Of a stretch of DNA of 64,000 bases, positions 14,071 to 60,682 are shown in pieces; position 1 is the stretch's first letter; each line of letters starts with the position of its first letter. The notes under the pieces were generated by a model. That model saw nothing but the letters and a program-made list of their open reading frames with translations, did no database searches and was not told the origin of the DNA. The stretch comes from Branchiostoma lanceolatum (Eukaryota > Chordata > Leptocardii > Amphioxiformes > Branchiostomatidae), in assembly GCF_035083965.1 (NCBI RefSeq), contig NC_089738.1, positions 9,512,734-9,576,733 of the forward strand. The letters run 5' to 3'. The position numbers were made by a program, and so were the translations under genes.

Positions 14071-17000
14071 TCATTCTAGCGGACAAAAAGCTCGGAACAT
14101 GAGCATGCCTTTAGACCTACAGGCGATGTTGACGCTCTGGTTGGCGGAGACGAACACCACACTCCCGCGGGAGAACTTGACCTTGTGTTCGGCGACCGAT
14201 GGAGTGGTGCCCTCCCCCTCCCCTTCTACGGTCAGCACGATACTGGCACTGTCCACCGCTTCAAGGGTGTATGTACAGGGCTGGGCACAGTCAGAGGGAA
14301 TCTGGGAGAACAGCATGACAAAACATGGCAATCAGAGACAGCAGACTTCACCCTCTTAACCACTTTGCTTTGCAACCCTTCCAAGATATACTTTTAGGCT
14401 AGCCCGAGGTGTCGCCAAAAATAACAGCATTAGCAATGTACGACAACACAGCATTGAGTATTGGTAATCACACTAACACAAGTGTAAACAAGTTCCATTG
14501 CAGTACTGTAGGAAGCGGCTACGATGCCCATTCTCGAACTTGACCTTTGTCTCCCCTACACCTACGCACCTACCAAATATCACAAAAATTCATCCGGATC
14601 CACATCTTCTCGAGTTATGCTGCTTACATTTATGAAGATTAGACATTCAGGTAGTAAGATAAGCCAAAAATAGTTACTCAAGCAACTGGATAAAACGTCT
14701 GACTGTTTCAAAATCTTATCCAGTTGCCTAAGTGACTATTTTTGGCTTATGCAGTGCTTACACTCCGCCATAGCAAAACCGAAAAAATAATCTTCTGGTA
14801 AAGAAAAAAGTCAGACAAACACATATTACTGTAAATCTTGGAATCTTTGCGGTGGTTTTATTTTCACGTTTTTCGCAGAGACCTCTTCACCTTGAATTGA
14901 TGACTCCCTGAATATGTCTCCCAGCTGCATGACTATTGACAGTATATTGTACGACAAAATTGTTTTGAACACAAATTCTAAACACCTGGAAAACCTACTG
15001 CAAAAAAAGACATTGCAAAAGCACATGAATTTACAGTACCTGTATCTTAGCGACAGCAAAGTCAGGCACAGGTGGGTTGTATATGGAGACTGAGGAGTCT
15101 GTGGGGTGTTTCTGGCACTGGAAGATCTGCTGCAGTGGGCTGCTGGGGACGTACTCTAACATGTCGCACAGGGTGGAGACATCGATGTACTTCGGTGTGA
15201 GTCCCGCTCTCACCACGTTGTCTGAACATGCCATACATTCCATGCAATCTGAAAACACAACATAAAAGTTAAATCAAAAAGCAAGAGTTCTAAGAACAAT
15301 CCATTATGTGAGATTATTTTGAATATAACTTGAAATGAACAAAAAGCCATTTCTTTTAAATTCCTTCAAAACTCTAACCGACATCTTGCCGCATGTACAA
15401 GAGTTCAATTTTTGGATTTCTAAAATCTTTGACAGTTGTCATACCGTCATGGGCTACTAGGTGGCGCAACTGAAAAGGGAACAAGTCAAAGACAATGCAA
15501 CATTTAAAACATAATGTTCTTGTGTTTTAAAGAAAACAATTCTCCAGATATACCAACCCTTGTCAATGAATTTATCTGACTTCTCTTTGAAGCTGTAGTG
15601 CTATTGAAACCTGCTAGGTGGCACAACTGCAATGGACAACAACTAGTAGTCCTGCACATGTTCAGTTTTAACTCACCTCCTGACAGATATGCATGTGGCT
15701 TGTTTGGGCCCAGGAACATGGCTTCTCCGGGCTGCAGTCTCATGTGGTTGAGGAAGAAGATGACAAAACAGCCCACATCTCCAGGGAACTGGGAGTGGAG
15801 CCGCTGGAACAGCTCCTTACTACTGTCAGACATGGCAACATCACCTGCAGTAACATAGTACTAGTAGTATGAAGGACTCAGATATATATATTATGTATTA
15901 TCCTGACTAAATCACGCTTGTAGTGCTATAGGCCTTCAACAGATCAGGCCCCTAGCTAGAGAAGGCCTAATCAGGCCCTCACAGTGAGAGATTGAGTAAC
16001 ACAGGCAAAGATACATGTATGTAGTACAATGCTTAACACTAAGGTATATACACAGATCAAATTTTCAATGACTACTGTCGCCTTCTTCAGGGTCAGTAAT
16101 GACCAATCACTTCTGAACGTAAATTCGCAAGAGTTATAAACACATGACCTTATTGACATGTTCGGAAGTGATTAGTCATTACTGATCCTGAAGAAAGCAA
16201 CAGTATTTATTGATGAAAATGTATATCCAAGGACATTATATATTACTTGAAGAAAGTTTAGCATTGTAGGATGAAAACTACCAACATAGATGAGCTTCCA
16301 TGATACATGTTTGTATATGATTAATTCTCATCAAATATGGAATGTAAGGTCCTGATTTGCATGATTCATGATCATGACCATAACATTTAGTGGTCTCCTC
16401 TACCTGAATTACATACAATGTATATCATAACATAAGTATGAAAGATAGATCCTTTGACAGAAAATGATAATCTGATTCAGTGATTATGCAAATGAACATT
16501 AATTTGCATAAAGGCTGAAGAAAACCTTGATCCAGTGCTGTCTAACCTTGTTTGGCAAGCCTGTCTAGAAGTGAAGCCAGCTGTTTGGCTACTGTGTCCT
16601 TGTTGCAGGTCATGAGGGCAGTGAAACACCTCTGCATGGCCTGAGACACCTGGTCTGGCTGGCCGGAGGACTGGGCGGTCATCAGGACCTCTGCCGCCTC
16701 CAAACCTACAACAGCCTGGAACTCTGCAACACCTATAAGGAACAGTCACAATTATAGGTGGTTAGATATCAAGGTACTAAGTAATAAGACACGCAAGGTA
16801 ACAGTTACTCAAGCAACTGGATAGATTTGGAAACGGTCAGACGTTTCAGGTAGCATCCACTACATGATTATGTCATTGACAGGTCACGATCATTAGGTGT
16901 TTAAAAATTTGTTTTTTCCTACAAGTTGTAGGGTAGAACTTCACCAAGCATAGCCGAACCTGTACAAGTGATCACCTCTACATAAGGACACCTGGCCAAT

Positions 17001-19850
17001 GAACTATTATTTGGTGGTCGCTGACATAATTTTCCCCATTGATTTAAGTGTTAAGAATCGTGTCCACAAAGACCAGATCTTATAGGTGGACCTAAGAGGT
17101 CTTAGTGGTAGAAGAAACTTCATTGAATACACATACTGTGTAGCATTAAATAATGCTTAGAGTTAGATATACAAGGTTAGCAATTACAGAGCATTCAGTG
17201 TATTATAGTAGACTCTACCAGTCTCCACGGGTTGCTGGGAAAATAGTAGAAATTGGCCAAATAAAGTCAACTGCATGGTGGGAGTCGGCTATGGAGATAC
17301 ATGTAATGTTTGACCTTATCTCCATAGCCGACTCCCTTCATGCAGTTGACTTTATTTGGCCAATTTCTAGTATTTTCCCAGCGACCCGTGGAGACTGGTA
17401 GAGTCTAGCATTATAGCCAGACTTGTACATGTAACATTACATGTACAATGCCTTAGTACTAGTAGTAATAAAAAAGTAATGTTGGTACCTTTTAGGAATC
17501 CCACAATTTCTTCCAGTGGTCTGAACCCACAGAGACCTTCGAAGGGAGTGAGGGCAATGGCCATCTCAGGCTTGTGGTTAGGGTCGGGGTACTTGTCAGG
17601 ACGAGCCGCATGCAGTTCTTCAGCATGTTGCTAGGAGGAGTAGGAAAATGGGAAATTCAGAACAACAAATGCTGGAACAGAGACATCAAAGATGGCAAAC
17701 TTTAATTCATAGCTTTGTTCTTATTGCGCTGGGATCCTACGCTACTAGCAGTGCAACACAGAAATATAGCATTATCAGTGCTGCTGACAATGTATGGCAA
17801 TGCTGTTTTGTATATATTGTGAACCACACACACACACAAATGAACACATACATTAACACAAACAAACACAGACATAAACACACACAGACACTCAAACACA
17901 AACTCACTATACATTCAGACACACACACACACACACAAACTCACTCCACATTCAGACACACACACACACACACTTACACACATACATTATGATTAACACA
18001 AATACACACAGACATTAACACAAAAACACACAGACACTCACACACAAACTCACTCTACATTCACACACGCACACACACACAAAGACACACACAGACACAT
18101 ACACACACACACACACACATACAAATTAACACAGACACATTCACACACACACTAACCTTAGCTGGGTGGGCCTGTATAGACAATGATGAGTTGACTGACA
18201 GAACCTTGAACAGAAAGGGCAGCTGCTTATCAAACTTATGCAGCACCTTCTCCCCCAGTGCAGTAGGGTTGTCCTGTACCCACTGAGCCAGGGATGTGTC
18301 AGGCATGCCGGGGGACACTATGGTACTGGGACCCTTAGGGTGGGTCCCCATCCATAACTGCAAGATAAAAAGAACATTGAAGGATCATCTAAGATTCTTA
18401 TTCTAGAAAGTCACAGGAGGGTAACTAGAATCAGTTAGAATGCTTTTGCTGTGATGGTAGGGCTCATTAATGATTCAAAAGAATGAATATGGTCATCATA
18501 GTAAATTAGTATCATGTAGTAACAGAGAAGGTTGAAAATATAACTTAGATGACTTTATATACTTTTGCATTTTTACATCTTGGAAAGCAAGGTTTCAAAA
18601 GTTGACAAAAAGAAGAAAAGCAAGACTGAATTTTCTTTGTTCTTACTCCAACTTAGTAAAGTAGATTACTGTTAATCTTGAAATATCAATGGTATTACAG
18701 AGTTTCATTCTCCACTTTGAACTCATGATCTCTGATCTTGTCCTCAAACAGAAATCTGTATTTCCATTATGTTGCCACTATAAGCGCTTTCACACATTGG
18801 AGCACGCATGTGCACTGCAAATTCAGACAATGGTCGAGTTGATAGAACTGTTAACAAGCCAGGGGCCTTCACCTTTGACACTGCACATGAATACTTGAAT
18901 GTGTGAAAACGCTTATTGTTTCTGCGCTTATTGTAACTGAAATATACCATGAGCTCTTTACTTTTGCTGCATCACAAAATTCAGGGGGGGGGGGGAACTT
19001 TGAATGAATTTACACTGCAGATATGACTGACCTCTGCATATGTGGCGTTGTTGTTGACAACAAAGTTGGGGTCGCTGCTGGCACTCAACTTAGCCACCTC
19101 GCTGTCAGACCCCACCTTCCCCCAGGCATACTGCTGCACTGCACACTTCAATGGAAACACTAAGGGGGAGGGGGTATATCAGTATCATTCAAGGCAACCT
19201 GCTTGTTCAAGGTTAATGTTAGCATAGTGGTTATTACAAAAGTACCAGTAGTCCTGAGTCTTGCTTTCCTATAATAGTATATCAGTTCTTAGAAACATTT
19301 CACTGTACAAATATCTTTTCAAAATGATTGGGGAGCATGAAAATTATAAGAAAATAGCATTGTTTCTCCTTCCAACTGTAGAAAAGAGGGCTAAACACAA
19401 GATGGTTGGGATAGGTCCATAGACATAGTTATTGAGCTAAACAAAACTTTTTAAACTTTTAATTTTTATTTATGGAAAAGTCGTGAAAACGGACATCCAC
19501 CCAAACATTTTAAAACTTCAATCACATCGTATCCATATTTAACTTTTAGTTCAGCTCAAGAATCTAAACAGATCATCTTTAGCTGACCTTGAGCTTTGCT
19601 CGCTGACTACTTTCCAAAGGTCGAATCAATCAACACGACGTGCGAGTTTCCATGATGTCCACGCCCCCCTCCCCACAAGTGCTCCTAAACTTTGTAGATA
19701 TGGCTAGCTCTAGTCTATCGTAGGTCTTGTTTCTTTTGTCTGTTTAAAACTTTCATTCAGTTACGACATTCCCACTTTTACAATGACGTAGAAAATTGAG
19801 GAAGAGAAGTGCAGTAAGAGAAACAAAACCTCACCAAGAGCACTCGACAT
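14071..19850 (-). CDS. MPI: Mannose-6-phosphate isomerase (complete, 8 exons)
   Basis: Exons in transcript order: 19,850-19,835; 19,159-19,032; 18,357-18,157; 17,630-17,489; 16,732-16,547; 15,844-15,677; 15,248-15,040; 14,301-14,071. All have GT-AG borders and the joined frame is 426 codons plus stop, against 423 residues in human MPI from memory. The enzyme is a cytosolic zinc type I isomerase interconverting fructose-6-phosphate and mannose-6-phosphate, feeding GDP-mannose and N-glycan synthesis. Family motifs are present: [68 protein letters not shown] and [12 protein letters not shown]. Zinc ligands fall at Q110, H112, E137 and H275, and the catalytic Arg lies in VRAGLTPK. The first coding exon is only 16 nt (MSSAL). 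It is divergent from ENOX, with starts 482 bp apart. Confidence 0.97.
14654..14757. repeat. Foldback repeat in MPI intron 7
   Basis: AGCCAAAAATAGTTACTCAA with CAACTGGATAA is mirrored by TTATCCAGTTG...TATTTTTGGCTTAT. The word AGTTACTCAAGCAACTGGATA recurs at 16,805 and in diverged form near 5,860, so this is one member of a dispersed family. Confidence 0.65.
16074..16207. repeat. Foldback repeat in MPI intron 5
   Basis: The left arm (ACTGTCGCCTTCTTCAGGGT...GACCAATCACTTC) pairs with the right arm (GAAGTGATTAGTC...ATCCTGAAGAAAGCAACAGT). It lies between MPI exons 5 and 6, has no coding content and resembles a degraded MITE. Confidence 0.6.
17209..17407. repeat. 199-bp foldback with ~83-bp arms in MPI intron 4
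   Basis: TAGACTCTACCAGTCTCCAC at the left is matched by its complement GTGGAGACTGGTAGAGTCTA at the right, and the pairing continues with few mismatches for over 80 bp around a short loop. High arm identity suggests recent insertion. It sits between MPI exons 4 and 5. Confidence 0.8.
17825..18156. repeat. (CA)n-rich microsatellite abutting MPI exon 3 donor
   Basis: Imperfect CA repeats are interspersed with CACTCA, GACATT and TACA words. On the transcribed (minus) strand it becomes a UG-rich run that begins immediately after the exon 3 donor GTTAGTGTGTGTG. Confidence 0.9.
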
Positions 19851-23300: not shown

Positions 23301-26300
23301 AAATGTTTTTACTGAAAAATGTGCATGTAAATCAAGTTTATATTTCTTCAAGCACTAGTATATATGTTTGGGTGCATGAGTGAGTAAGTTGTTCTATATC
23401 TTGTACTTAAATTGTAGGCCAAAGTGTCCTTTTGACACTAGTACTGGTTGACAAGATAAGCTACTTATCCAATTTTTCTGTTTGCCTGTAGGGGATGAAC
23501 CAGTTTGGAATGATGGATCCTCAGTTTGCTGGCTTCATGGGGGGTATGATGCCCCCACCCCCACCTCCCGATCTACAGAGGGAGATTATCGAGCTCAAGA
23601 GTTGTACCTTATTCCCACCCATGCCAGGTAATACTAATAGGGCACTTAGCCCTATAGTATATGTACAGATACAATGTAGGTGTAGTCCATATATATATAT
23701 CTAGATGTCTTAAATGAGTGTGCCAGTCCCCTTATAACTTTTGTGAGTACTGTCAGTAGTTTTATTCCTTTCATTTAACACAGGAAATACTTGTAACCAG
23801 TACATTTTGAAATGCAGTAAAATCTAAGCTTGAAGAATATTCGTGTAACAGTAAAATCTAACTAATTAAACCAAAGTAGAGATGATTCTATCTACAACTT
23901 ACAAGCTTTGAAGAGATATTGTTAAGATATACATGGATGTATTTAATATGTAGAATTCTTATGACTACAGTCAAACCTGTACAAGTGACGACCTCAACAT
24001 AAGGACAACCAGAACAATGTGACCCCTTGGTCACTTTGATAATTTTTCCCTTTGACACAAGCATTCAGAATCCTATCTACATGTATACATGTAGCTGCAT
24101 TGCCACTTATCTACATACATGTAGACCAGGTTTTATTGGCATATTTTATAAGCAGTCTTCTTGCCAATGGGCAGTTTTGACTGTATCTATGTTGCTAATA
24201 TTTTTCATTTCTCAAAAGGCATGCCGCCACCGACGTGCCGGGAGCGCCCGCCAGGCTGTCGGACGGTGTTTGTCGGAGGCATGCCGGAGAGCATGACGGA
24301 GGACATCATCCAGGAGGTGTTTGAGCGCTGCGGCGGCATCATCAGTATCCGCATGAGCAAACGGAACTTTTGCCATATCCGATTTGATGACCAATCATGT
24401 GTGGACATGGCAATCGCTTTATCAGGTAATGTTATATTGTTGCTTATATTAATTCCATGTTATAGTTTTCCTTCTCTCATTCCTTCTTTCTCTACTTCCT
24501 TTGCCACTTTTTTGTAGGCAAAGAAATAGAATTACAAAGTATGACTGTGAGAGTCCTGTACAGCATATTTAACAATATTGATGTTATGGTGTTGCTTATC
24601 TTTTTTCAAATTCCATGTTATAATATTTTTCTTCTTTCATTCCTTCTTTCTCTAGTTCTTTGCCACATTCTCTCTCTTACAAAGTATGATTGTAAGGGGT
24701 GTGGTAGCTGGTCTCCATTCCAATGGTGTCCCTTACAACTTTCAAGAGTTTGTTAGGATAGCATCTGATGTTATTTGTACTCTCAAACCCAAGGAAAGAA
24801 ACAGGAGCCGAGCTACATTTGAGGATGCTTGTATTCTCTCTCTCTCCTCTCCTCTCTTTAAGACTGAGTACAAAAAAATATGCGAGCCATAGCGAAGCCG
24901 CATTGCACTACTCGCTAACAATAAAGCATCATGCTTCGTCCTCAGCTTGAGGTTCGACCACTTAACCTTATATATTACGTTCTAATCTACTATTTATAAT
25001 CCATTCTTTATCAGGTTATAGAATCCGGCTAGGCCAGAGCAGCGACCCAATGAACATGGGCCGTCTCCACGTGGACTACGCCCAGGCCCGTGACGACCAG
25101 TACGAGTGGGAGTGTATCCAGCGCCGCATGCAGCGGGAGGAGCGCCACAGACGCAGGGTGGAGGAGATGAGGATGAGGCCCCCCTCCCCTCCTCCCGTTA
25201 CGCACTTTTCAGACCACGAGTGCCAGATTCTTGCTGACAAGCTGAAAGGTAATATCTCTAAACGGTAAAAATTTACAAGGAGCCAGCCTGCTTATTATGT
25301 ATTGTGAGCCCAGACATTACAAAACAGGTCTCAAAATACTAGGTGCACACATGTAAGCACTTTGTGTACCCAAAATTGGAGCTGTTCACCTAGTTGTTGA
25401 CTGTGAATGTATACAAAAATGTAGATATTTGTGTAGGATATATACATTATATGTTACAAAAAATATCAAAATCTTTAAAGTTTGTTGTAAATATGTTGAT
25501 CAAGTTATCATGCAAAACATACAAGTATGACTAAAAAGACAACAAAACACGCAAATGTAAAAGATAATCAATGAAATTTCTTGAGTGCTCTATCAAATCT
25601 GCAGTGAGGTCGCCAACGTGCCATAGCTTCAGTGAGATACAAACTTACGGTGCACCTTTGCAACTATTCTCAATAATGAATTCCGAGCCCTGTAAAACAT
25701 GGTTTACTGTTCTACTTTCCAGCTGATGACACATTCTCGCCAGCAACCCAACAACTCATCACATGGCTGGAGCGAGGTGACTGCAACAAACGCACCGCCA
25801 ACAACTTCTACAGCATGATCCAGTCAGTCAACAGCCACGTACGCCGCCTGATGAACGAGCGCCAACAGTACGACGAAGAGTTCCAGAACGCCCACAGGGT
25901 CCACAAGGGGCGCCTCACGGGCCTCCTGCTACAATGTAAGTGCTCGCTACGTTGTTTTCGAAGGGCTCAAAGGACGGTGGTTTATCAGCTATGGACATAG
26001 CCTGCAACATCTGGTAACAGTTGAGATTTTTGCTTTGTGGTACATCTGTTCAGCCCGTAGGTTGTTGTGAAGTCAAGCCGACATCTCGTGAAATCTTGAG
26101 CTGTTTTGATGCACATATTGGCTTCAAAGAGGATGTTTCAGTTGGTAGAAGTGGTATGGTGGTACATGTATGTGAGTATGGCAGTGTGAGTGGGACAAAC
26201 TTGTCAGGTTGATATGTATTTATGTGATGAATATCAGTTGCTAGCCAACACAGACAGCAATGGTCAGTTCATTCTTAAACTCTGCTGCTGATTCTGTGCT

Positions 26301-35454: not shown

Positions 35455-38400
35455 CTATTCCTCCTGTTCTTCGTCCTCTTCCTTGTCCCTGGGGGACTCC
35501 TTGGAGGACTCCTCTGTGTTTTTACCCTTCCCGGTATCCTGACGCCGACGTGCCCCCGGCCGGTACAGCTGCATGGTGGGTCGATCCTAGAAAGAAAGAG
35601 TTACAGGTGTAAGTTAGGTAAAAGGTAGGTACGTAAAGGTAGCGTCTAGGACACCATTTTACTTACCTAACCAAAGCCAGGAGCCAAGTTTTACACCTGG
35701 TGGAGTTTGGAAAGTTGTGAAGTGCATTTCCCAAGGGCACAACATTAGTGGCATGTCAGAATTCGAGCCCAGGACCTCTGGGCCTAACTGCTACGCCAAT
35801 ACAATACCATTTGTAACATGCTGGAGGGGAAATCAAGTTTTCGCATATTTTGAAGATATATTTTGAGGTCTTGAATTGTACTCTGTCTCTTACATGCTAA
35901 GACCTGTTTTCTTATTGGTGCTAAATCTTGCATCGTTTGACTTGTTAAAAACTTCACCTTGTTTCTTAACCGCCTTCTCTCTGCTCTTGCTTCCTCCTTG
36001 GTGAGTTCTCTCTCAATATCATCTTCTCCACCTTTAGCCCCCCTCTCCTTGTCAGCGGCATCTGACTTCCTTGAAGTGTCGGACTCAGTTGATAGGTGGC
36101 GCTCCCGCACACCTTTGCTCTCAGCCTGTTCTTTACCATCTGTCTCAGTCTTCTCTTCAGCATCAGTCTTTTCAGAGTTTTTCTTCTTTTCTTTCTCACT
36201 TTCCTGCCTTTTCTTGCGTTCACGCTCCTCCCTTTCGCGGCGCTGTCTTTCTTGACGTTCACGTTCCCTTTGCCGCTGTCGCTCACGTTCTTTTTCCCGT
36301 TGTCGCTGACGCTCTTTCTCCCTTTCTTTGTCGTCTTTGGTTGTCTCCTAGAATTGAAAAAATAGCAAAATTCTAAGTAGCTTGATAGTAAACTAATAAG
36401 CTTTAGCACCCTATTCTGTATGGGTTACAGAGTTAGGCAGCAGGGAGAAGGTTAATCTTCCAGCTAACCAACATCTTTTGCACTGCAGTCAGCCCTCTAT
36501 AGGATAGTTTTGGTACAATCCATTTTCTTACACCAAAAACTATCAAAGTTCTGAAGAAAAGGCACACCACCTCAAACAATTGTTTCTTACCTTTCTGTCT
36601 CCACTGTCTTTCTTCACACTCTTTCCATAATCCCTATAATAATAAAAAAATTATAGTTTGATTACCTTAAAAGAATAATTTCATCAAATCAGAACATATA
36701 ATATGTGCTGATAAAATACAATCAAATTAAAGCAGAGAAATAAGTAGTACAAAATGGAGTTCAAAATGCTTTGATTTTGGTGGCTATAACTTGTTTCAGA
36801 GAACAAAAAATCAAGAGATCTTAAAAGCTAGAATGATGTACCTTTCTTCATCCCTGTCATCTCTGGAGTCCCTGTCCCTTCTGTCTCTCTCTTTGTCTCG
36901 GCGCTCCCTTCTCTCCCTATCTCTTCTCTCTCGTGCACTCTCTCGCCTGTCGTCCTTCCTTGGTGGGGTTCTGTCCCTCTTCTGATCTTTTGGCCTGTGT
37001 TTTTCTGTGTCTTTCTGTTCCCTTTCTGGGTTCTTCAGTAACTGGCAGGTGACAGATAAGATCTAGCTTAACCTTTAGCACATTGAGGTAGCCATTTGGC
37101 GCTCCATTCTCTATTGGTTACAGAGTTAGGTGTTAGAAGGTTAAAGCGGGCATCTCACTGGACTGCGCTATTTGGGCTAAGAAATTGCGCCAACATTGAG
37201 AATTTGTGCCAATTTCCCTTGCGGATACACTGACACTCACTCACATTTGCAAATGAAGCTCATATAAGCCAAACAAAATGACCGCTCCCAGAATCTCACT
37301 TTCGATTACAAGACAACATTTATCATTGAAAACCACTGAATTAAAAAACAATGTATAATTGATTAAAACTTCATTAAAAAAAAATTACAGTGATGAAATA
37401 ATTTTTTTGCCATTTTGCCAATTACATGTATAAACTTTTTACAATTTTTAAAAATTTTCAACTTCATTTAGCAAATTGGCACTGGTTTGCGCCACTTGCA
37501 GATGCCTTTCGCAATTTGGCACAGTCTAGGGAGATACCCGATTTAGCCCTTACAGCATACATACCTTTGCACTAAATAGATTTTATGAAAGAAATTGATT
37601 TGTTTGTGTGAAAGAAGAATAGACTTTTAGTACCTTTACAGATTTGACAGACTCTTCTTCCTTGCCATCGGATCCATCTTTGTCCTTTCCTTCCTTCTCC
37701 TTCTTAGCTCTCTCTGCTCGTTCCTTGTCTCTCTTCTTCCTTCTTTCCTCCTCGCGGCGTTTGCGCCTCTCTTCCTCCCGCCGTCGTCGTCTGTCCTCCT
37801 CTTTACGCCTCCGTTCCTCCCGCGCCTCTTCGCGTGCTCTCTGTACAAAGGGCGAAAATCTTATTTTTTATATCCTCTATCTCAACTGTTTTACCCTCAA
37901 TATCTTTCTCAACCCCCCTGCTTTGAACTTTGAAAATGAACCAGCCCTAACAAGGACAGGTGTATCACCTGCAACACCTGATACTTACAGCTGCAGCTGC
38001 ACGTCTGTTCTTGATGAAGTCCAGGAGGGGTGTGGTCATCTTTGTTTCTTTCAGATGCAAAATAAAGCAAAAACAGTATCAGAACCTATATCACAGTAAA
38101 ACCGAGAATCACAAAGAATATGTGAATCATAGATTGATAAAAATATAGCATCATTGTGGCCATAGCTTTTACAAGCGACATATAAACTAATCTTTCGGCT
38201 CTTAGTCTTGTTGATTATTTCTTTATTCATTCGTATCAAAGTTCTTGTACTTAGTACATATACCTTCTTTCTTCCTGTCTCGGGCCTCTATCTCCTCAAG
38301 TAATGACTCGATGTTGGCTGGAGGGGTGTCGCCAGCATTTTCATCCTTAAGGCTTTCCAGAAACTTAAGGTAGTCTGGGTCTACGGAAAGGGAACAATAA

Positions 38401-39749: not shown

Positions 39750-40184
39750 GTCTGCGCACCTTGTGCGTTGATTATTCTCTGACAAAAATGGTTTTACAAG
39801 ATTCTATTTTTCCATCTCCGCCATTTTGAATGTTATGATCTCGCCAAATCTCGTAGCTGGCAAGCTAGTCACGTGATCTAAAACCAAGCACATTTTCTTG
39901 TTATCCGGGTAAAGCGAGCATAAATTACGCTGAAATATTAATATTCAAATGATATTTATGTTAATAACACACCTAATGACAATATTTTTTGTGTTTTATT
40001 TAAGAAAATGATGTTTTTTGTGTGTCATTTTCAAAATCTCGTCTAAGGCGGGAAGTCATGCTGATGCATTGTGGGTAAAATCTAGTTGGGCAGCCATTTT
40101 GACCTCCAAAGACGGTATTTTTTGGAGGGTCTGGAAAAAATCAGGATTTCGTCGTGAAATACCTCAAAAAGAGCGGTCGACAAC
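39750..40184. promoter_or_regulatory. Shared promoter of UPF3 and NDUFA1
   Basis: Starts are 435 bp apart on opposite strands. The interval carries two GCCATTTT motifs (39,824 and 40,095; YY1-like AAAATGGC on the minus strand) and an E-box GTCACGTGAT near 39,868 of the USF/TFEB type. A second TCACGTGA and an ETS-like ACTTCCGG sit within UPF3 intron 2 near 39,310-39,365. Function is inferred from motif and spacing. Confidence 0.55.
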
Positions 40185-41307
40185 ATGTGGTATGAAATCC
40201 TGCCGGGCTTCGGCATCATCGTAGTCTGCCTGTGTGTTCCAGGGTTCGTCACCCCTCGAATTCAGAAGTTTCAGAACAATGGAAAGGTGAGCGATTTTCT
40301 TAATAGTTACTTGTCATATAAATTTTTATTAATATCAGGTGTATTTGCAGCCAGTGCCACAGGCAGGTACCCAATGTGTAGGGTAATGTTCATGAAGTTT
40401 CTACCTGCAAAACAAGTGTTGATGTTGTAATCTGTGTTTTAGACCGACCGTTTTAGACTACGTCATATTGTCCAGATACAAAATCTATCAAGGGTTTAGA
40501 CCCACAGAATTTGCTATTTGCGCACTAGCTTCGGAAAAATAAGTGATACTAGTAGTTTGTGCCTTTTTGGTGACGCCTTAGGGGCGTGTTCTTGTTGCTT
40601 TTTTGTTTATTGTATATTGTTTATTTGCACGTAAAATATAACATAAATGAACAGTAAATGAACATAAACAAAACAAATACATGCAGGGGAAACCAGAAAG
40701 GTTTATCTAGGGTTACATTAATTACATCATAATATCAATTTTATGTTGAAACTAATGAGGTGACATATTGTATTTCAGCTGAAGAGAGTTGCGAGAGACT
40801 GGAACGAGTGGTGGATGATGTGCAGAGACCACAGACTCACTGGTTCTCACTACATTGCAAGGGTAAGGAGAAGCAAATGATTTGGCAGATCTAGATTAAC
40901 CCCTCAGAACCGGATTTGGATCATTAATCACACCAGGATTCGCAAATCGGGATAAATACGGGGCCTTGGCAAATTCCTATTTGCAAATTCTGGTATAAAT
41001 CAGGTCATAGATTTCATTATTTTTTTCTGTTGTTGTTAAATCTAGTATCATTGCACCAAATTTTTTCATCAAGTTAAGTAAAGGTCTGTACTACACAAAA
41101 ATTTAAAGCGCATTTCCATGTATCAATGTTTTTATAATGTATGTCCAAGACGTCACTTGTATTTTCCTTGTACTTTATAAGGTATTGTACAGTATGTAAT
41201 GCAGTTTATAACTGTGATGTACCACTTGCTTGTTAACCATTTATTCACAATGACTTTTTTCACTCTAGGGCCTGGAAGCCATCCCTGACAAGCCTGCCAA
41301 GAAGTAA
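40185..41307 (+). CDS. NDUFA1: NADH dehydrogenase (complex I) 1 alpha subcomplex subunit 1 (complete, 3 exons)
   Basis: Exons 40,185-40,286, 40,779-40,862 and 41,269-41,307 encode 74 residues, against 70 in human (from memory). The N-terminus MWYEILPGFGIIVVCLCVPG matches the MWFEILPG start and single transmembrane segment of the family (about residues 5-25). It is followed by RIQKFQNNGK, the conserved KRVARDWNEWW block and IARGLEAIPDKPAKK. NDUFA1 (MWFE) is a supernumerary inner-membrane subunit required for assembly of respiratory complex I. The start is the first ATG after a YY1-containing promoter shared with UPF3. An AATAAA at 41,492 follows within 200 bp of the stop. Confidence 0.95.
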
Positions 41308-49024: not shown

Positions 49025-52000
49025 TCAAACATAAATTTTCTCAACTAGTGTGCTTGCAGGCATTCCACTTAGGATGTCAAATTGAGACACACTACGATTG
49101 AAGGTTTTGTTCATCCAGTTGACAATGTCTATGGCCATCAGCGAGTCCACACCATAGTTGGTCATCGGCTGGTCAACGTCGATCTGGTCTGGAGGCATGC
49201 CGAGGATCTGACCGAGATGATTCAGCAGCTGTCCGGACAGGTGCTCCGCACTCTGGATACTCTCAGCTGTTCGAGACGACAATGAATGAATGAAGACCTT
49301 TATTGCACATTTCTGCCACACTTGGCTAAGTACAGGTCGCAACAAAACAATATAACAAGTACAGTTAACGGATACAAAAGAATATGACTATCATTAGATA
49401 TAGTAGATATGTTATAGTAGATATAAATGAACAGACGTGTTTTTCAATGGAAGGTTTGTCTAGTCGCATTAGGAATATGAACAGTACAGTACTTAACAGT
49501 ACTTAAATGTGTGAAGTAAGGAAATAGGTTTTCTACAAGCTTATACAGTTCATTTCTTTCTTTGGTATATAATCCACATTCTACTACAAAATGACATTCG
49601 TCTTCTATTCTATTCAAAGTACAATATTTACATAATCGTTGTTCTAGGGGAGTGCGGGTACCGGTATGTCAATAACATGGTTGAAAAGACCAGATGTGAG
49701 TGTTCTGGTTCGGCTGATAATTTTTTTTTTCTGAATCCAAAAACGTAATTGTATTGGCAACACGACCACGAACCAGGACTAGGCAGGAGCTGCATTTTAC
49801 AGCATCAATATTCTGATAACCCCCTGAGTACCCTTCAGCCAGGTGTAACATGTTATATCGCGAACAACCATTGGACAAACTTCAACTTTGCGGCTCTTAA
49901 GAGACCTTGGGTTGAGCTTGAAAATTTCCTTTGTAATGTGTTTCTGAATACTTGTCACGTATAACCTTAGTAACTACATTTCCCACTTGCTTGTATTCAC
50001 AACGATGCGGTCTGTTAGAAACTAACACTCTTCCCTGGTCTTGTGTATCCCTTTAAAACAAGGCATAACAGATATCGCTATGCAAATAGCTTGAGTAAAG
50101 CACACTTCAGGTGGTATATATAAGAATATATTTGTGCTACTTTGTCTTACCTGACTTCACCTCTTCATGCACAAGATGGCGATATTTCATGGTAGTCGGA
50201 TATGAGAATTGCAGGGCCCTGCACCAGTCCTGCACACAAAAAAATCAATTAGAGAATATTATAAATTCTATACTGTCATGATGAAATCCACGAAGAAAGC
50301 GTATAGGTTACTTGTTAGAGTGGAAATACCTCTTCACTGTTTAAATGCAAATAAGGTCTTCATTTGCATAGTTGATATCTATCAATATTTCTCTCTTCCT
50401 CAGTTACATATGTCACATGTTTGAGAGTCCTATCGTGAATATCGGCGGATGCATGAACTTTCCTCATGAATTATGCAAATTAGATACAGATCTGCATAAT
50501 AAGTATCTAATTATGTAAATCATCACTCAAGCTATCTACATACCAAAAATCATGAGTTATTTCCTATCAAAGTCTGAAGCAAAGCCTGCTCCTGCAGTGC
50601 CAAAAAAGCCGCTAGGGGCCCAAACCTAAACCACATACTCTCTTCCCTAAAAGCTATCTACCACTAACAAATCGTGATCATAGCATGTCCAGAACACAAG
50701 ATATCAAACCCGGAAGTTACGCTGCATTACCGTAACAGGTCTCTAGGGGGCCCAAAATCTAATGATTTGGAGGTCTCATCAAGACCTACCCACATACCAA
50801 ATATCAAGACAATCCATCCAGGACTTCTCCAGTTATTCTGCTTTTCTACATACATACACACACACATACAAAGGCTACCGAAAACATAATCTTCTTGGCG
50901 ATGATAATTAGTATGAACTTACGGTCATCAGGCACAATTAAAAGATAAATGTTCCTCATTCATTATGCAAATCAAGTCCTAATTTGCATAACTAGCATAT
51001 ACATTGGTCCTCATCAAAGGTACCTACAGGTCAAAAATCATGAAAATGTATTCGTCCCTTCTCGACTAATCCTTTTTCAAAGTAAAACGCCCCTGAAGTT
51101 CAAAGAAAGCTGCTAGAGAGCCAAAACTTATGTCACTTCTTCAGAAGATCTGTCTACCATTTTAAACGATCGTGAACATAGCTTGTCCAGAGCACTCCAT
51201 ATCAAAACCGGAAGTTGTGACTTTTGTGACTTAATTTCTATTGATTGATCAATGAATCGATTCATCTTATGTCAAAGCTGCATAAAATCATATCAATCCC
51301 TGGCAGTGATATCGGCCATTCAACATCGCAGGCCTAACTATAAAAAATACGTATTCCATTTTAACGTATAACAAAATATATACCCCGCTATGATAGAAGT
51401 TCCAGCAATTACGGTACGTACCATGTTTCCAAGTGTGATGACAGCGACGTCTCGGGCCTTCAAGAGACGTGGCATCATCCGCAGAACTTCATTGATGTGA
51501 AGTGTCAGGGAACCCTTCCCTTTGATGATTTCGGTAGCTTTCTTCTTTCCCTCGAGGAAGCCGACCCCTCGGACTGCACCCAACTGCACGGAGAGGGCGG
51601 GGAGACCTTGTTGATGTCGGTGCTCTGCAAGGGCATCAAGGAAGCTGTTGGCAGCCACGTATCCGCACTGTTCTGGATTCCCCCACGTCGCGGCCACAGA
51701 TGACAACAAGAAGAAGATGTCCAGTTCATCCTCATGTGTCAGTTCATGAATGTTGAGTGCGCCCTGTGCTTTTGCCGCCATAACTATTTCCAACTGACTT
51801 TCGTCAGCGTCAAGGACATTTGAATCATCAATGACAGCTGCCAAATGGAAGATGCCCTTCAATGCTGGGACCAAGGGGTTCTCTCTGAGATGATTCAGCA
51901 TTTTTTCAAGGGATGTCTTCTTTGTTACGTCGACTGTTATTGCGTACACTTTAGCTCCTCTGCTTTCCATATAGTCAACTGTTCGCCTGTTCTCAGCAGT

Positions 52001-55000
52001 CTTGCATCCATTTCTTGACAGAAGAGCAATGTGCCTGGCGCCGTGTTCTACCACCCAACGGGCTAGGGCCTGCCCAATGCCACCGAACCCGCCGGTTATG
52101 AGGTAAGTGCCGTGCGCATCAAAAATCTGCATCGGTGGCTCCAACCTCTCTGGTCTAAACGCTGACGGTATCTCGAACACAACCTTTCCGACATGTTGAC
52201 CCGTTGACATCCATCGTAACGTCTCTTTGTAGTCGTCGATGCGTTTGGTTGTAGTCTTCACTGGAAGGATGTTACCGTCTTTCACAAGATTGCAGACTGT
52301 CTTCATTAACGTTTGGACCTGTGTTGGCTTTGTCTTCATCAATAGATCTAGTTGTACCGAGAGGAAGTTCTTGTTTTCCAGGAAAGGCCGTGTGTCCATT
52401 TTCACGTTCTCGAGCATTGATCGCTTGCCAATTTCGCAGAGAATGCCACCCGGGCTCAAAGCCTTCAAGGTTGCAGTCTGTAGGTCGCCGTATAAGGAGC
52501 TGAGGGCAACATCTACTCCTTCGCCATCCGTCCATTTTAAGATGTCATCGAAGAATCGTGTAGATCTTGAGTCAGAAACATGTGGTATTCCCAACTCTTG
52601 CCGGAGGAAGTTTCGTTTTTCCTCAGATCCAGCTGTGCAGAATATTCGCGCCCCGACCACACGTGCTATCTGGATTGCCGCTTGTCCTACCCCTCCACAT
52701 GCAGAGTGAATCAGCACCGACTGGCCCGGACGAAGACACGCCCTCTCAACCAACGCGTAGTAAGCAGTCATGAACACCATACTGAAGCCTGCAGCCTCCG
52801 TCCAGCTCACATTTGACGGCTTCTCTACAACAAAGCGCTTGTCACAGACAACATGGGACGCAAAACAGTGATCCCCAAAGGCAATGACTTCATCTCCCAT
52901 TTTGACATGTTCCACAGAACTGCCAACCTCCACCACCGTTCCCGAACACTCGAGCCCAAACTGGGTTTGTAGAGTGAGACCACCCAGGAGTCCAAGCGAC
53001 ATCATCACATCCTTGAAATTGAGGCCTGCCGCACGAACTTGAACCCTGACTTGATCGCTCGAAAGAGATGCAGCAGGCAGTTCGTAAAATCCAACGTCCT
53101 CCACTGTTCTGGTCTTATCTAGGGGGACATCAAGAACCCAGTGATGGCAATGAGCTGGGCGGATGCTCATTGCCATAGACGTTCTGTTCAGCCTTGGAGC
53201 TAGAACTTTGCCATTTCGGATCGCCAGCTCTCTTTCCGCTGGTGGTTCGGACAACAGTGTGGCCACAATACCAGCCAACTCCCCCAGTCCGGATGTACGT
53301 GTCGTTGAAGGCAAATCGACTGTGTAGATTGGCAGATCCTTCAGCTCATTGTTGACAACTCGGAAAAAGCCTGTCACAACAGATGACGCCGGTCTCGAAC
53401 ATTCTACGCTACCGCCTGCTGTAAACACCCACATGCTATGGACTCTTTCTGATGCACGACTGATGGATTTTGTCAAAGCTAATGCGTGCCTCAGGTATGT
53501 GTCGTTCTCTGGCCAGATGTAGACAACCTTAAGAGGTGGGCCCTGTGTCGGTATGTCTGTCCTGTCGCCAATATGACACATCAAGGTGTCTTTGGGTAAG
53601 ATTCCCCGCAGCGCGTTGACAAGTACTCCGTCTGGTTCACCAACAAGAATCCACTTGTCCTCGATGTTGGGCAGCGACATGGTTGCGATATGCGGTGCAG
53701 ATTCTTCTTTCTTGCCAACAATTGCGGAATGGAAAAATTCACTTGGAGACGACACGCCCACGACGTCACACATCCCTCCGTTTACGAAAAGGTTGCACCA
53801 CTCTTTCTGGGATAGCCAACATGAATCTTTTCTGTACTCGTCGTCATATGCCCAACACAGCTCCAGAGACCCAAAGATTACTTCTACCACGTGAAAAGCG
53901 TTAGTGGGCTCGATCATAACCAGCCATCCGCCAGGAGATAGGAGACTCTGCACGTTTTTCAGTCCGGCCATGGCGTCCACGGTTGTGTGGAGAGTGTTTG
54001 TACAGACAACAATGTCGAAGGTTCCAGGCACGAAGTTTTGCAACTCCACTGGCTTCTCAATATCAAGCTGTTTGTATTTGACATGTGGAAAATCCTGAAG
54101 GGCATGGCTTGCTTGGGCAAAGAAGTCGGTATTGATACCCGTGAAAACATACTCCAGGAAACCTTCTTCTGCGACATGTTTGACATGATTCAGAAGTATT
54201 TGTGCCAGTCCCCCAGACCGACCACCTATTTCAAGAATCCGGACAATCTGCTTGCAGGGTAGCGCAGCTTCAACGGCCTTCTCGATGGCCTCTGCACAAG
54301 CGTGGTAGTAGAGTTTGATACTCTGTGAGTACATGTAGTACTCCGCTAGGATACCTTCAGCAAACAGAATGGGCAGAGCTGCAGATGGATCACGCAGAGT
54401 GGTTGGCAGCAGGTCCCCGAGTCGCTGTAATGTGTTAAGATCGAACTCGAAAGCTGGAACATCACGCCTCATCTCATCTAACCGCTCGTGAATCTCATCT
54501 AGTGGCAGGCTGTCGATTTCCGACTCTTTAGTAATGATGTTTTGTAGTCTTTCGATGTACCGTGCATTCTTCGGGCTGACCTCGTGTTCTGGGACGGTGT
54601 CAAGAGCACGACGAATATACGACACTGTAACGCATTTCAGTCCGGGGATGATCTCTTCCACTGCCTGTGTGATCTCCATTTCATCCCTTAACTGCCCCCA
54701 AAGATGATTTGTGTCGAAGATATCGTAGAAAATATTTGTCTCTGGCAAAGAAGAATGGGTCGGCTGCCATTTGGTTTCGTACAAGCAGCTGTCTGACTCA
54801 ACATCGGTACTGGTGCTCTGAACGCCACGTGCCTCGTAACCTACAATACGGGTTAATACCTCCCCTTGGAGGGTGGCCATGGTTATGTCAGCTTTGAAAA
54901 ACATGCTGTCACGGTCGATGATGCTGGCATGAGCTACAAGCGGCTCCCCTAGCGGGAGGGAGGGGACGTACATGTTGAACTTGGCGATGCCAGTTGGAAC

Positions 55001-58000
55001 GAACAGAGTGGAGCAAGGGCCAATGGCAGCAATAGCAACCTGAAAGCAGCCGTCTAACAGTGCTATCTGTACCCGTTGCTGCGTGTCGTTTGCTGGCCTT
55101 AGATATCCTACTGCTTCCCAGTCACCTATGTCAGCCTTTTCCACAATTTGGAAGGCGGGGCCATACTGAAGACCCAGGTCACTCAGTCGTTGGTAGAATG
55201 TTATGCTAGTCACTGTCTCCAATATCTTCGACAACTTGATGTCGGACACGCTCGCAGAAGATCCCTTTTCCTGTTTGGCGACGCAACCTTCCGCGTGTAC
55301 TGTGTTAGTTGTGGCAATCTCCGCTTTCTTCCCGCTCCTGTTAAGTGCAAGCTGCAGCGTGGCCTTGGCCTTGTCGACACCACTTATCTCTGGCCAGACT
55401 AGGACTTGTTTAAAGCAAACATTCTCTAAGGATGGATTCTCTAAAGCACCAAATGTCGACTGAGTGATGTACTCGACGTACGCAGCGCCTGGGAACACTA
55501 CCCTGTCATTAATCACATGATCTGCTAGGAAAGAGAACATCTCAAGGGTGATGTTCCCGTTTTGACCCTTGAAAGTGCGATCCTCAAGACCGAGTCTCTT
55601 CTTGCGTGTTGATTCAGCCTCTTGCCAATGTCGCTGGTGCTGCCATGCGTACGTCGGAATCGGTGTCCAGACGGCAGCGTCTGGAGTTACGTTTGACCAG
55701 TTGATGTCCACCCCGTGAACGTATAGTGTGCCCAAGGCCCGTAGAAGGCATCTCCGATCATTTTGATGTCGCTGTCCACACGGCACTGTCACTTTCGCAG
55801 GGTGGTCTTCATGCTTCAGTGTTTGAGCAACAGAAGACAAGAGTGTGGCTGAAGCACCAAGTTCGATGTAGATATCGGGACTGTGATCTTCGATGACCGA
55901 CCTAGTTGCAGACGTAAACTTGACGTTTTCCCTGATGTTATTCCACCAATAGCAGGCGTCGAACTTCCCAGTGTAGCGTTGCCCTGTCACGGTAGAGTAG
56001 AACGGCACACAGACTTCTCCATCTCTTTCTGGCTCAAATGAGGACATGGCTCTAAGGAAGGAATCCCTAATAGGATCCATGTGGTCCGTGTGAAACGCAC
56101 AACTTACACGTAATACTTTCGTCGTTGTTGGGTTTCCGTCGTGTAGCGCCTCAACAGCTTCAGTTGCCCCTGCTACCGCTACAGAAGTCGGGGAGTTGTC
56201 ACAAGCTACGCAGACACCTGGGAATTTAGCGACAAGCTCTCTAGCCTCTTCCATCGATGCACGTACGGCCGCCATCCTCCCTGTTCCTTCCAGCTTTTCT
56301 TGTTCCATGCTTCTATTGTAGATGACTCGGATGGCTTCTGCCAAAGTCAAACCACCACATGCGTGGGCTGCAGCAATTTCTCCTAAACTGTGACCAAGGA
56401 TGACATCTGGCTGGACACCCCATTCCTTTAGTAAGGCAAGGAGGCCAACCTGTATGAACAATATAGCCGGCTGAGAGACTCTGAACTTGTCGAGTGTAAA
56501 CTCTGGGTCGGCTTCAACAAATAATCCGGACTTCTTCAGGAGAGACCAGCCACTGATGCCCTCGAAGATGATGTCGCAGGCATTGACAGCTTCCCTGAAG
56601 ATCGGCTCCATCTGATACAGCACTCTACCCATATCATTCCATTGCTGGCCTTGACCAGGAAAGACAAAGCAAACCTTGGGGCGGGATGTTTGCACTTCTC
56701 CGGTGACGATGTCGAAAGTGGCCGTCTTGTTGATGAACGATTTTAGAGACTCTCTCGTCCGAGTCCCCGAATTGGTGATGACAGCAAGCCTGGCTGGGTG
56801 ATGGCTCCGTCGTGTTGAGGCCCATGAAGCGACTGACACTGAGTCCTTCTCGTTCTTGAACTCGACCCACTTTCTAGCAAGGTCGATTAGTGAGTTTTGT
56901 GTCTTGGCACTGAGTGGGAGAATGACGTATTTCCCTTCCTCATCATCTAGGCCAAACTGCCATCCACTCCCGGGGAGGGAAGAATGTTGTTCTGTTAGTA
57001 CATCGCTGTGTTCTTCCATGATGACATGGGCGAGGGCTCCTCCAAATCCAAAACTGTTCACTCCGGCGGTCATCTTCTGATTTGTTACAAATGGCTCCAA
57101 ATTCGTTTGCACTGCCAACTGCAATGTTTCAAAGTCAACCTCAGGATGAGGAGATGTATAGTTGATTGATGGACACAGAGTACGTCTGTCCATCATCAGA
57201 GCTGTCTTGATTACACCCACTATGCCTGAGGCACACTCCATGTGGCCAAAATTACTTTTGTTCGACCCGATCTTCAGTGGTGACAGGCGATGAGCACCGA
57301 AGGTGTTGCCGATTGCTCGAGCTTCTATGGGATCTCCCACTGGCGTGCTCGTCCCATGAGCTTCAACGTACGACACACTTGCTTAGGGAACACCGAAGCG
57401 AGCGTACGTGCTCTTCATCAGCCTCTCCTGCGCACTGGATGAGGGCATTGTAATACTTTGACTAAAGCCATTGCCAGCTATGCCGCTTCCCCGGATGACA
57501 CTGTATACATGATCACCATCGCTTACAGCATCTTTCAGTGGCTTGAGTAGAATGGTGCCAAATCCTTCGCTGCGAACGTAACCATTAACCGATGCGTCAA
57601 ATGGACAGCTGTGCCCATCTGGCGACAACACTCCCATTGCGCTAAAAGCCACCGTTACTTCTGGTGACAACGTGTTGCACCCACCAACCAGAGCTATACC
57701 ACATTCCTTATTCCACAAAGACGAACAGGCCAGGTGTATGGCTGTTATGGACGATGCACACGCAGTGTCCACACTGAGACTAGGTCCCTTCAAGTTAAAA
57801 GCAAAGGAGATTCTGTTCGCAGCCAAGCTATGCTCAAAACCTGTGTTGGCATAAGAGTTGAACAGATGCCTGTCAGGTGCGATTCCTATAAGATAATCGA
57901 ACATGCCGATACCAACAAACACACCACATGACTCAGACACGCTCTCGGGCACGATACCTGCATCTTCAAACGCCTCGTATGTCACTTCTAGGAGATGGCG

Positions 58001-58937
58001 CTGCTGGGGGTCCATCATGGCGGCCTCTCGTGGTGATATCTTGAAGAAGGTGTGGTCGAACATGTCGATGCCGTCCACAAACCCAGCCCTGCGCGTGACG
58101 TGTGTGCCTGACTTGTGCGGATCTCTGCTGTGGTAGACATCTAGTGACCATCTTTCCGGTGGAATTTCGGTGATGACGTTTTTTCCCTCACTGATGACGT
58201 CCCAGAACTTCGACGGACTAGTAGTTCCACCGGGCATCCGACAACCTACACATATGTAGAGAATCGGTAGGTTTGTTTGTACCTCATAGGTCCATCGATG
58301 TACATTTGCATAATACATAGTTCTTAAAATGATCCTCTCATTCTACGCAGCATATACTACATGTTTAAAACTCCTATCATGGAACAGAGCGGAATTCCAA
58401 AATGTCCTTCATTATTATATGTTTAAGGCCGTGACAAGCATATAAAACATCAGTTTAAGAGTGGGGATTCTAACCAACGTGACTATAGCTCAAGAGCTAT
58501 CTGCCAACGAAACATCATGACCATAACATATCCAGAACACGAGACATCAAAATCGAAAGTTCTTTGCAGTACATTAGAAAGTCGCCCGGGCACCCATCAT
58601 CAAACTTGTCCTTCGGTTTGCCAACATATACCAACAAACCATATTCTTAAGTTATGCTGTCCACAAAAAATATAAACAAAAATGAAACAATCGTTAAACC
58701 CACATGCAAACAAATCCAACCGCAAACGGGACCAAAACAAACTTTAAGGTAACATCATTTTGAAATCTCACCTATCCCAACTATGGCGATGGGGAAGTAG
58801 TTTGGGTGTTGTTGGTCCCGCTGGACATTTGGTTCATTCTTCGCTCTATCCCCGTCCATGACTAGTGGTGTGTTGGGTGCATTCTGATGACCACCGAAAA
58901 TAGCACCGGTATGGGCCCGCTCATGTCTTATTTCAAC
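49025..58937 (-). CDS. Type I polyketide synthase KS-AT-DH-cMT-ER-KR-ACP, with in-frame stop
   Basis: Exons in transcript order: 58,937-58,772 (ATG at 58,859-58,857), 58,245-51,422, 50,229-50,151 and 49,266-49,025. They join in frame to 2,410 codons plus stop, with one TAA at codon 317 (57,385-57,383). KS: DTACASS Cys192, EAHGTS His326, NFGHM His364. AT: GHSLGE Ser649, CAFH His748 (malonyl-type). DH: His939 and LDGCFQ Asp1094. cMT: about 1,300-1,490. ER: SACGGVGQAAIQ near 1,877. KR: TGGFGGIG near 2,080 and Tyr2225 in GYVAAN. ACP: GVDSL Ser2372. It would build and reduce an acyl chain from malonyl units in the cytosol. There is no thioesterase after the ACP, which separates it from FASN. Domain order resembles animal FAS-like PKSs and fungal reducing PKSs. 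The product is unknown. The ATG choice is provisional because the first exon is open further upstream to a good acceptor. Confidence 0.9.
49280..49665 (-). mobile_element. Truncated non-LTR retrotransposon 3' end in PKS intron 3
   Basis: On the minus strand the sequence encodes an interrupted RRC..C...RIEDECHFVVEC-type zinc-knuckle stretch typical of the C-terminus of non-LTR reverse transcriptases. It ends in a CATTCATTCATT-like 3' tail with AATAAAGG. It is related to the copy at 58,960-59,575. It lies just upstream of the ACP exon acceptor. Confidence 0.65.
50575..50900 (+). repeat. Dispersed repeat (same family as 7,395-7,750), PKS intron 2
   Basis: Shared landmarks are GCTAGGGGCCC, AAGCTATCTACCA, CATAGCATGTCCAGA and CCACATACCAAATATCA. 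A further partial copy follows at about 51,075-51,240 (ACGCCCCTGAAGTTC, GCTGCTAGAGAGCC). Confidence 0.55.
57383..57385 (-). pseudogene. In-frame TAA inside the PKS ketosynthase domain
   Basis: The codon falls between ARFGVP and ASVSYVEAHGTS, immediately before the first catalytic His of KS. The frame is identical on both sides and no splice pair removes it without losing conserved residues. It could be a sequencing error, a null allele, a young pseudogene or a read-through site. Downstream, more than 2,000 codons remain open. Confidence 0.85.
58480..58690 (+). repeat. Dispersed repeat (same family), PKS intron 1
   Basis: AGAGCTATCTGCCA, CATAACATATCCAGAACACG, a CCAACATATACC segment and AAGTTATGCTGTCCA match the landmarks of 7,395-7,750 and 50,575-50,900 in the same order. 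Confidence 0.5.
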
Positions 58938-58959: not shown

Positions 58960-59575
58960 TAATGAATGAAAGACCTTTATTGTGCATTCATGCCCCGAGG
59001 GGCTAGGTACAGGTCGTCTAACTTAACACATGGAACATACAATGACATAAATACAACAATACAAGCTGTAACATAGAGAGTAGACAAACGTGTTATTAAA
59101 CTAAGCTAGTCCAGTAGTGTCGACTTCTTCTCGCTTCTTTATACATGTGTAAATGTAGTTTAGGGGAGACCCCCGAAAAGCCTTATAGGCTTCTGGCCTC
59201 CCCTGCATGTATTCTTTGCTCTATTTATCTTTGTTTTATATTGTACACATGAAAATAAACAATAAAATAAAACAATAAAAAATAATTGTATGAACAGACA
59301 ATATTTCTTATACAAGGATTATCCAGGCGTAATAAAAATATGAATTTGTCTGTTGCATTAAGATGTTCGAAATATGGGAATTTTTCTTTGATAAAGTTAA
59401 AAAGTACACTTCTTTCGCTATCGTAAAATTTACAATCTAGGACGAAATGTTGCTCATCTTCTACTCGATTTAAATTACAATGTTGACAAAGTCTATATAA
59501 AGAGGTGCCAACACCAAGACATTTCATTAGTGTTCCCAACATTCCGATCCGGTTTTTCATCATATACGCGGTCTT
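58960..59575 (-). mobile_element. Truncated non-LTR retrotransposon (LINE) C-terminus
   Basis: A minus-strand ORF (59,563-59,225) encodes MMKNRIGMLGT, LCQHCNLNRVEDEQHFVLDC and FPYFEHLNATDKFIFLL, the CCHC-type end of a CR1/Jockey-group reverse transcriptase. The 3' UTR runs to about 58,960, ending with a TGCACAATAAAGG-type tail and a CATTCATTAATG run. It is 5'-truncated, as usual for LINEs, and lies directly upstream of the first recognised PKS exon on the same strand. Confidence 0.75.
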
Positions 59576-60339
59576 ACCTCTCCAACATAAAGTGCTTTCC
59601 TCTGTCGTTCATAATCATATTTTAAGTGAATGATAGATGAAACTTCACATCACTGGTAATGAATTACTAAAAGAAAGATAATACATTATAGTAGTCTTTC
59701 TGTACGTTGAATTATATATTTTGACTAGATTTACGCGCACAATGAAAAGCTGGTAGAAATACACGTACCTCTTTCAATAATTTCCCTGTCGAGAATTCTA
59801 GAAACAACATCTTAACCATATCAGACCCCTGTGGGACCTTTCTCAATTCTAAAGTGCAAAAACCGTTACCATGATGCTTCAAGTTTACTACTTTTCATGA
59901 GTCTCTGACAGGTATGTCGACCGGTCGGGTGCAATGTCAATCACATTTCGTTGCCAACTTTTATTCTTTTACAATAAATAATTCAACTGAGAGTAAATAA
60001 AACGTTGACTCCATTCCCATAGCGCTTTAGCTGTGTCTTTATATTAATCATTATTTATTATTAAAGACGGTTTTATTTTAAGTTGAGAAACACTATTGAT
60101 ATTCGGACTGGGTAGTATAATTTGCTAAAATTAGTATATATCTGAGGACATGCCAGCGTTATAAACAACATGTTGGTGGTCTTTTTCGTACCATCGAGAA
60201 ACTACCTTTAAGCCTTGTCTAACCTGCTGTGTGTCAGACAGTGCAAAAGATCCGTACGTTTGCCCGTCAAGAATCGAACTAGAATACCTATATTTGACGC
60301 ATATTACGGGTATCCCAATAAGCAAAAAGGAACTCGATT

Positions 60340-60682
60340 ATCAGTGCCGAATCCTCCTCTTCCAGGCAGGAACAAACAAGGGTTATACGTTACGCTGTGC
60401 TGCCAAACTGTCCATAATGCATATAATTAGTGCCGAATCCTCCTCTTCAAGGCAGGAAATAGACAAGGGTCATAAATTACTCTATGCTGCCAAACTGTCC
60501 ATAATGCATATAATTAGTGCCGAATCCTCCTCTTCAAGGCAGGAAATAGACAAGGGTCATAAATTACTCTATGCTGCCAAACTGTCCATAATGCATATAA
60601 TTAGTGGCAAATCCTCCTCTTCAAGGCAGGAAATAGACAAGGGTCATACATTACTCTATGCTGCCAAACTATCCATAATGCT
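60340..60682. repeat. Minisatellite, four copies of an 87-bp unit
   Basis: The word GTGCCGAATCCTCCTCTTC recurs at 60,342, 60,429 and 60,516, with a GTGGCAAATCC variant at 60,603, exactly 87 bp apart. Copies 2 and 3 are almost identical. Because 87 is 29 codons, a plus-strand ORF (60,231-60,686) stays open across the array and would encode a 29-residue repeat with SAESSSSRQEIDKG. Translation is unsupported. Confidence 0.9.

Follow-up and report, generated by a model that had tools for sequence, protein, structure and literature searches.

A minus-strand polyketide synthase gene and its surroundings

At this locus lies a polyketide synthase (PKS) gene on the minus strand of the window, by which we mean the whole stretch of DNA that was analysed (64,000 nucleotides). 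Read from stop to stop, the strand holds a 2014-residue frame at 51338-57382 with small exons on both sides; directly before it, and in the same frame, sits a 319-residue frame (57383-58342), with a single codon, TAA, between the two. The gene model, for which splice sites were chosen by eye with the help of homologous proteins, has four exons, GT-AG introns, 2410 codons and a terminal TGA right after the ACP. Its parts and motif residues are:

58772..58859, minus strand: exon 1, with the start codon and the first KS residues (..FPIAIVGIG) and the donor gtgag
51422..58245, minus strand: exon 2 (6824 nt), with the remaining KS, AT, DH, C-methyltransferase (cMT), ER and KR
57758..57760, minus strand: KS Cys192 (DTACASS), by motif search
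57383..57385, minus strand: codon 317, an in-frame TAA, with the KS Cys before it and both KS His behind; overlooked in the original prediction
KS His326 and His364, by motif search
56387..56389, minus strand: AT Ser649 (GHSLGE), by motif search
56090..56092, minus strand: His748 of the AT CAFH motif, by motif search
DH His939 and Asp1094, by motif search
53603..54505, minus strand: cMT region with SAM motif, His1449 and Glu1475, by motif search and PDB matches
ER and KR cofactor motifs, by motif search
KR Lys2188, Ser2212 and Asn2229, by motif search
51659..51661, minus strand: KR Tyr2225, by motif search
50151..50229, minus strand: exon 3, the KR-ACP linker
49025..49266, minus strand: exon 4, with the ACP and the terminal TGA; no release domain further in frame
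ACP Ser2372 (exon 4), by motif search

On the minus strand, the Pfam families follow one another as ketoacyl-synt, Acyl_transf_1 (E-value 2.5e-66), PS-DH, methyltransferase, ADH (the ER), KR (1.3e-60) and PP-binding. This is the KS-AT-DH-cMT-ER-KR-ACP order that the original prediction had read from the DNA. It had also noted catalytic residues in KS, AT, DH, ER, KR and ACP; each of the 18 motif positions sought in the modelled protein is present once, and the TGA of the model agrees with its reading of a stop soon after the ACP without a release domain. We assign catalytic roles to these residues by their families, with the exception of the KR Tyr, which is reported to be essential and to be absent in SpPks1 and CrPKS (PMC11414698).

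The gene has few introns, two of the three near its 3' end, and mollusc PKS genes are likewise described as having few (PMC10764717). Its 6.8-kb exon (51422-58245) has a GC content of about 50%, against roughly 40% around it. No second PKS copy was found in the window outside the gene (tblastn, E<=1). Rfam gave no match at gathering scores, and no NCBIfam model reached its cut-off among the best 25 of 124, all 19 of 19 and both of 2 families listed.

Ordinary eukaryotic genes surround the PKS gene, and the chordate origin named in the original prediction is plausible. A type I mannose-6-phosphate isomerase gene has exons on the minus strand at 15507-15860 and 18064-18384 (Pfam PMI_typeI), and an RNA-recognition-motif exon, presumably ENOX-like, lies on the plus strand at 24152-24514 (RRM_1, 7.9e-10). 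A likely piece of a gene for UPF3, a nonsense-mediated decay factor, is found at 35787-36347 on the minus strand; Smg4_UPF3 matched two of 63 ORFs (best 2.7e-10) and was placed there by text match. A plus-strand exon at 40158-40427, reading MWYEILPGFG, is probably the first one of NDUFA1, which encodes the MWFE subunit of complex I; here the single match to the MWFE family among 60 ORFs (8.6e-12) was also placed by text match. Two minus-strand frames, at 49444-49668 in intron 3 and at 59225-59608 upstream of the PKS gene, look like the C-terminal end of a reverse transcriptase; Pfam gave no match to either at E<=0.01. A tandem array at 60343-60681 (87-base unit, 3.9 copies, 94% matches) runs within a plus-strand open frame.

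An in-frame TAA in the ketosynthase

The locus had been called complete, a description that does not survive the TAA at codon 317. Instead of the uninterrupted reading frame of a functional gene, we find a stop within the KS; the allele shown is therefore interrupted. This copy would yield only a KS fragment of 316 residues. Two modelled exon junctions follow far downstream of the TAA, so that nonsense-mediated decay of the mRNA would be expected. Apart from the TAA, the 7.2-kb frame shows no damage: the 2410 codons contain this one stop and are free of frameshifts. The GC values by codon position are similar before and after the TAA.

Could the TAA sit in a hidden intron? In a set of 23 KS rows, the window's included, a motif just after the TAA was found in 18 of the 22 others; the four rows without a match include the CurL half, which ends before the TAA. 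LovB and psoA have a longer loop than the window KS at the position of the TAA. Since 16 of the 18 synthases that carry the motif share the window's spacing, a hidden intron is very unlikely. Inspected by eye, the GT..AG pairs across the TAA are as short as about 12 nt, and the longer ones would remove conserved KS residues.

How long could such a copy have drifted? With the gene's own codons and an assumed transition weight, about 3.1% of neutral point changes are modelled to create a stop. With an assumed 0.12 frameshift indels per substitution, one stop without a frameshift would then fit a neutral divergence of no more than about 0.5%, while in the same kind of model the stops alone would tolerate up to about 2% (P 0.06 at 2%). 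The estimated neutral divergence is thus small, and the copy would therefore be only recently dead, polymorphic or misread.

We give about even odds to a true recent pseudogene or a segregating null allele. The TAA removes everything from the C-terminal part of the KS through the ACP, which together with the small divergence speaks for such a loss, and the many PKS models reported in one lancelet genome (PMC4604110) could permit it, if the window is from a lancelet; the lesion is, however, a single one in 2410 codons. That an error of sequencing or assembly put the TAA into an intact gene for a working reducing PKS is a serious contender that we would rate somewhat short of an even chance. The otherwise undamaged frame and the like GC by codon position on both sides of the TAA are what such an error would leave, but nothing points to one, and a segregating null fits equally well. 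Recoding of the TAA, with the gene working as it stands, has next to nothing in its favour beyond the intact frame that continues behind the codon: we see no evidence of it, and TAA followed by G is not known as a leaky or a selenocysteine context.

Kinship of the ketosynthase, methylation and chain release

The original prediction of a reducing type I PKS apart from FASN and without a thioesterase is supported by domains, scores and the KS tree. In the PDB, the N-terminal piece of the KS scores 409 bits with 7zma (two KSs summed), 285 with CurL, 258 with MAS, 213 with LovB and 167 with human FASN. By BLASTP, the whole KS is 48% identical to the CurL half, 42% to MAS, 39% to a 7zma KS, 38% to LovB and 37% to human FASN; nine plasmid loci supplied 15 bacterial KSs, with which it shares 38-46% identity. 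In a tree of the 23 rows, its neighbours are Deinococcus and Persicobacter/Aureibacter, at modest support (85/81); inner support is weak, with six of 20 inner branches starred. The bacterial rows of this tree come from plasmids only (nine loci picked by eye for spread from 30 listed), and it was drawn without animal PKSs, EcPKS1 and EcPKS2 among them, without L001, a weak relative, and without later-found plasmid KSs of up to 49.8% identity. A clade of the window KS with FASN, the placement against which the original prediction was to be checked, was rejected by the AU test (p 0.0284; 23 rows, two FASNs). The tree does not group the window KS with the fungal LovB and psoA, but such a clade is not rejected by the AU test (p 0.286).

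The large ORF matched 2726 plasmid records, eight of them covered to at least 80%, with identities of about 27-34% in the 30 rows listed, while a plasmid search with the KS piece gave up to 49.8% (Planktothrix). GTDB contigs yielded one weak relative, L001, at 34% identity, in whose genome PS-DH found no match, and two scans of viral contigs found no relative.

These scores, identities and tree tests lead us to regard the KS as PKS-type, not FASN-type, by its sequence, in keeping with a report in which animal PKSs stand near those of microbes and separate from FASN (PMC4604110). Membership in the FASN-type or FAS-like (AFPK) group is accordingly very improbable. It could appeal to the large ORF, which matches pig FASN with 425 and EcPKS1 with 319 bits, best in ER-KR; the same ORF scores higher with MAS (508 bits, its best PDB match), and for the KS, human FASN has the lowest of the identities given above, below MAS, the CurL half and the bacterial range. 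The AU test counts against it too, as does the cMT region described below. Nor is the window KS FASN-like in the way of an AFPK: it reaches 263 bits with human FASN by BLASTP, against 442 bits for EcPKS1 with the human FASN KS, the latter from another program (phmmer). The kinship with FAS-like animal PKSs at which the original prediction had hinted finds no backing here, EcPKS1 and EcPKS2 being absent among the best 60 of the 94 matches that the KS piece has in the PDB.

The cMT region (53603-54505) has nine PDB matches at E<=0.01, none of them a FASN chain. The best is the CurJ methyltransferase (103 bits); AprA, psoF, LovB (78 bits), a putative methyltransferase, DisA and the citrinin PKS also match, and juvenile hormone acid methyltransferase and Dictyostelium PKS16 do so weakly. 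The pseudo-methyltransferase region of pig FASN gave 3.7 bits against the large ORF, which is without significance. The NxLH and E residues of CurJ and LovB, whose His and Glu we take to be the catalytic pair of the methyltransferase, are conserved in alignments with the window protein. Judged by these comparisons, the domain resembles those of bacterial and fungal PKSs. In the window gene, KR and cMT both look intact, though this does not prove that they are active. In echinoderms, the cMT is described as a pseudo-domain and the KR as likely inactive (PMC11414698), and active methyltransferases are so far only predicted, in the mollusc PKS clade mo-clade 5, according to PMC10764717.

The C-terminal thioesterase that marks FASN is missing from the gene, and the surroundings offered no replacement. 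Thioesterase, condensation and reductase families of Pfam had no match at E<=0.01 in 63 of 67 ORFs of a first scan (minus strand 29.0-49.0 kb, at least 65 residues; both strands 58.9-64 kb, at least 70 residues), and release-domain families had none at E<=0.01 in 60 of 63 further ORFs of at least 80 residues (minus strand 1-28.8 kb, plus strand 1-49.0 kb). The seven ORFs outside both counts lie in a GT/CA repeat stretch, frames of very few residue types being excluded as well; the scans cover neither the plus strand over the gene nor exons below about 65-80 residues. There is animal precedent for the lack of a thioesterase in echinoderm PKSs (PMC11414698) and in AFPK mo-clades 1-3, and EcPKS1 may release its product by pyrone formation (PMC10764717). 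Among the bacterial relatives, three of the nine loci gave a mixed picture by Pfam: the Aureibacter locus (L009) has a thioesterase, the Deinococcus locus (L005) has none and is adjoined by a condensation-domain protein, and the Caballeronia locus (L002) has none and carries a methyltransferase. It is a fair inference that the product is released by a separate enzyme, or spontaneously.

A probable animal-type synthase of a known kind, in an interrupted copy

Taken together, we read the gene, with a probability of roughly 0.8, as encoding a highly reducing type I PKS of animal type that works iteratively and has no thioesterase, in a copy interrupted by a premature TAA in its KS. The copy shown is either a recent or segregating null, or carries a sequencing or assembly error. 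In an intact allele or paralogue, the AT would load malonyl units, the CAFH-type motif being one that we take to signal malonyl specificity. The chain would be elongated repeatedly, with optional methylation from SAM and full or partial reduction, and would leave without help from a thioesterase of the synthase, taken over by a partner enzyme or freed by closing into a ring. Against this reading we count the weak inner support of the KS tree with its hand-picked plasmid rows, the clade with LovB and psoA that the AU test leaves standing, and the DH motif, which has, in the alignment, an Asp where FASN has a Gly.

Both anatomy and kind are already known, because the same core order occurs in lancelet models and in sea urchin PKS1 (PMC4604110); the contribution of this locus is its interrupted frame. 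For Branchiostoma floridae, 13 PKS models are reported, of which five have the core KS-AT-DH-MT-ADH-KR-ACP: three have exactly this order, while a fourth also contains an AMP domain and a fifth an extra element marked alpha (PMC4604110). As far as their listed domain order goes, these models (e.g. XP_002605916) share the core of the window gene, with no thioesterase listed and several per genome, though two of the five carry an added element; sea urchin PKS1 is given there the same core order with an altered KR. The passages on Branchiostoma in PMC10531068 concern NRPS.

SpPks1 and CrPKS have the order of the window gene and likewise no thioesterase, but they are reported to combine a KR that is inactive for lack of its Tyr with a pseudo-cMT and to make aromatic products (PMC11414698), whereas the window gene has the KR Tyr, together with the Lys, Ser and Asn motifs, and the cMT His and Glu. 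EcPKS1 and EcPKS2 are also animal and thioesterase-less, yet differ in their FASN-like KS, methylmalonate-preferring AT and inactive ER (PMC7280274).

Among the microbial systems, MAS, a reducing type I PKS, is not known to have a release domain of its own or a cMT; its AT shows ASH in the alignment where the window AT has AFH, a difference that bears on substrate choice. LovB, a fungal highly reducing PKS, has a similar domain order and a matching cMT, although the KS identity is low (38%), and its own ER is inactive, unlike the window gene, in which the ER motifs are present.

The order of the domains does not tell which product is made, because SpPks1, with the same order, makes an aromatic compound (PMC11414698). 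It is a tentative idea, which we hold to be possible but rather unlikely, that the product of this gene family, in an animal, is a reduced chain with methyl branches, set by the family's own working SAM-dependent cMT and not derived from methylmalonate. Animal polyketide chemistry is little explored, with only one vertebrate PKS characterised according to PMC10764717, and a synthase from an animal in which the motifs of KR, ER and C-methyltransferase are all in place would be a promising source of a product that is both reduced and methylated. The lancelet architecture has been in print since 2015 (PMC4604110); the value of the locus would lie in the choice of an intact copy for chemistry and in showing whether null alleles segregate.
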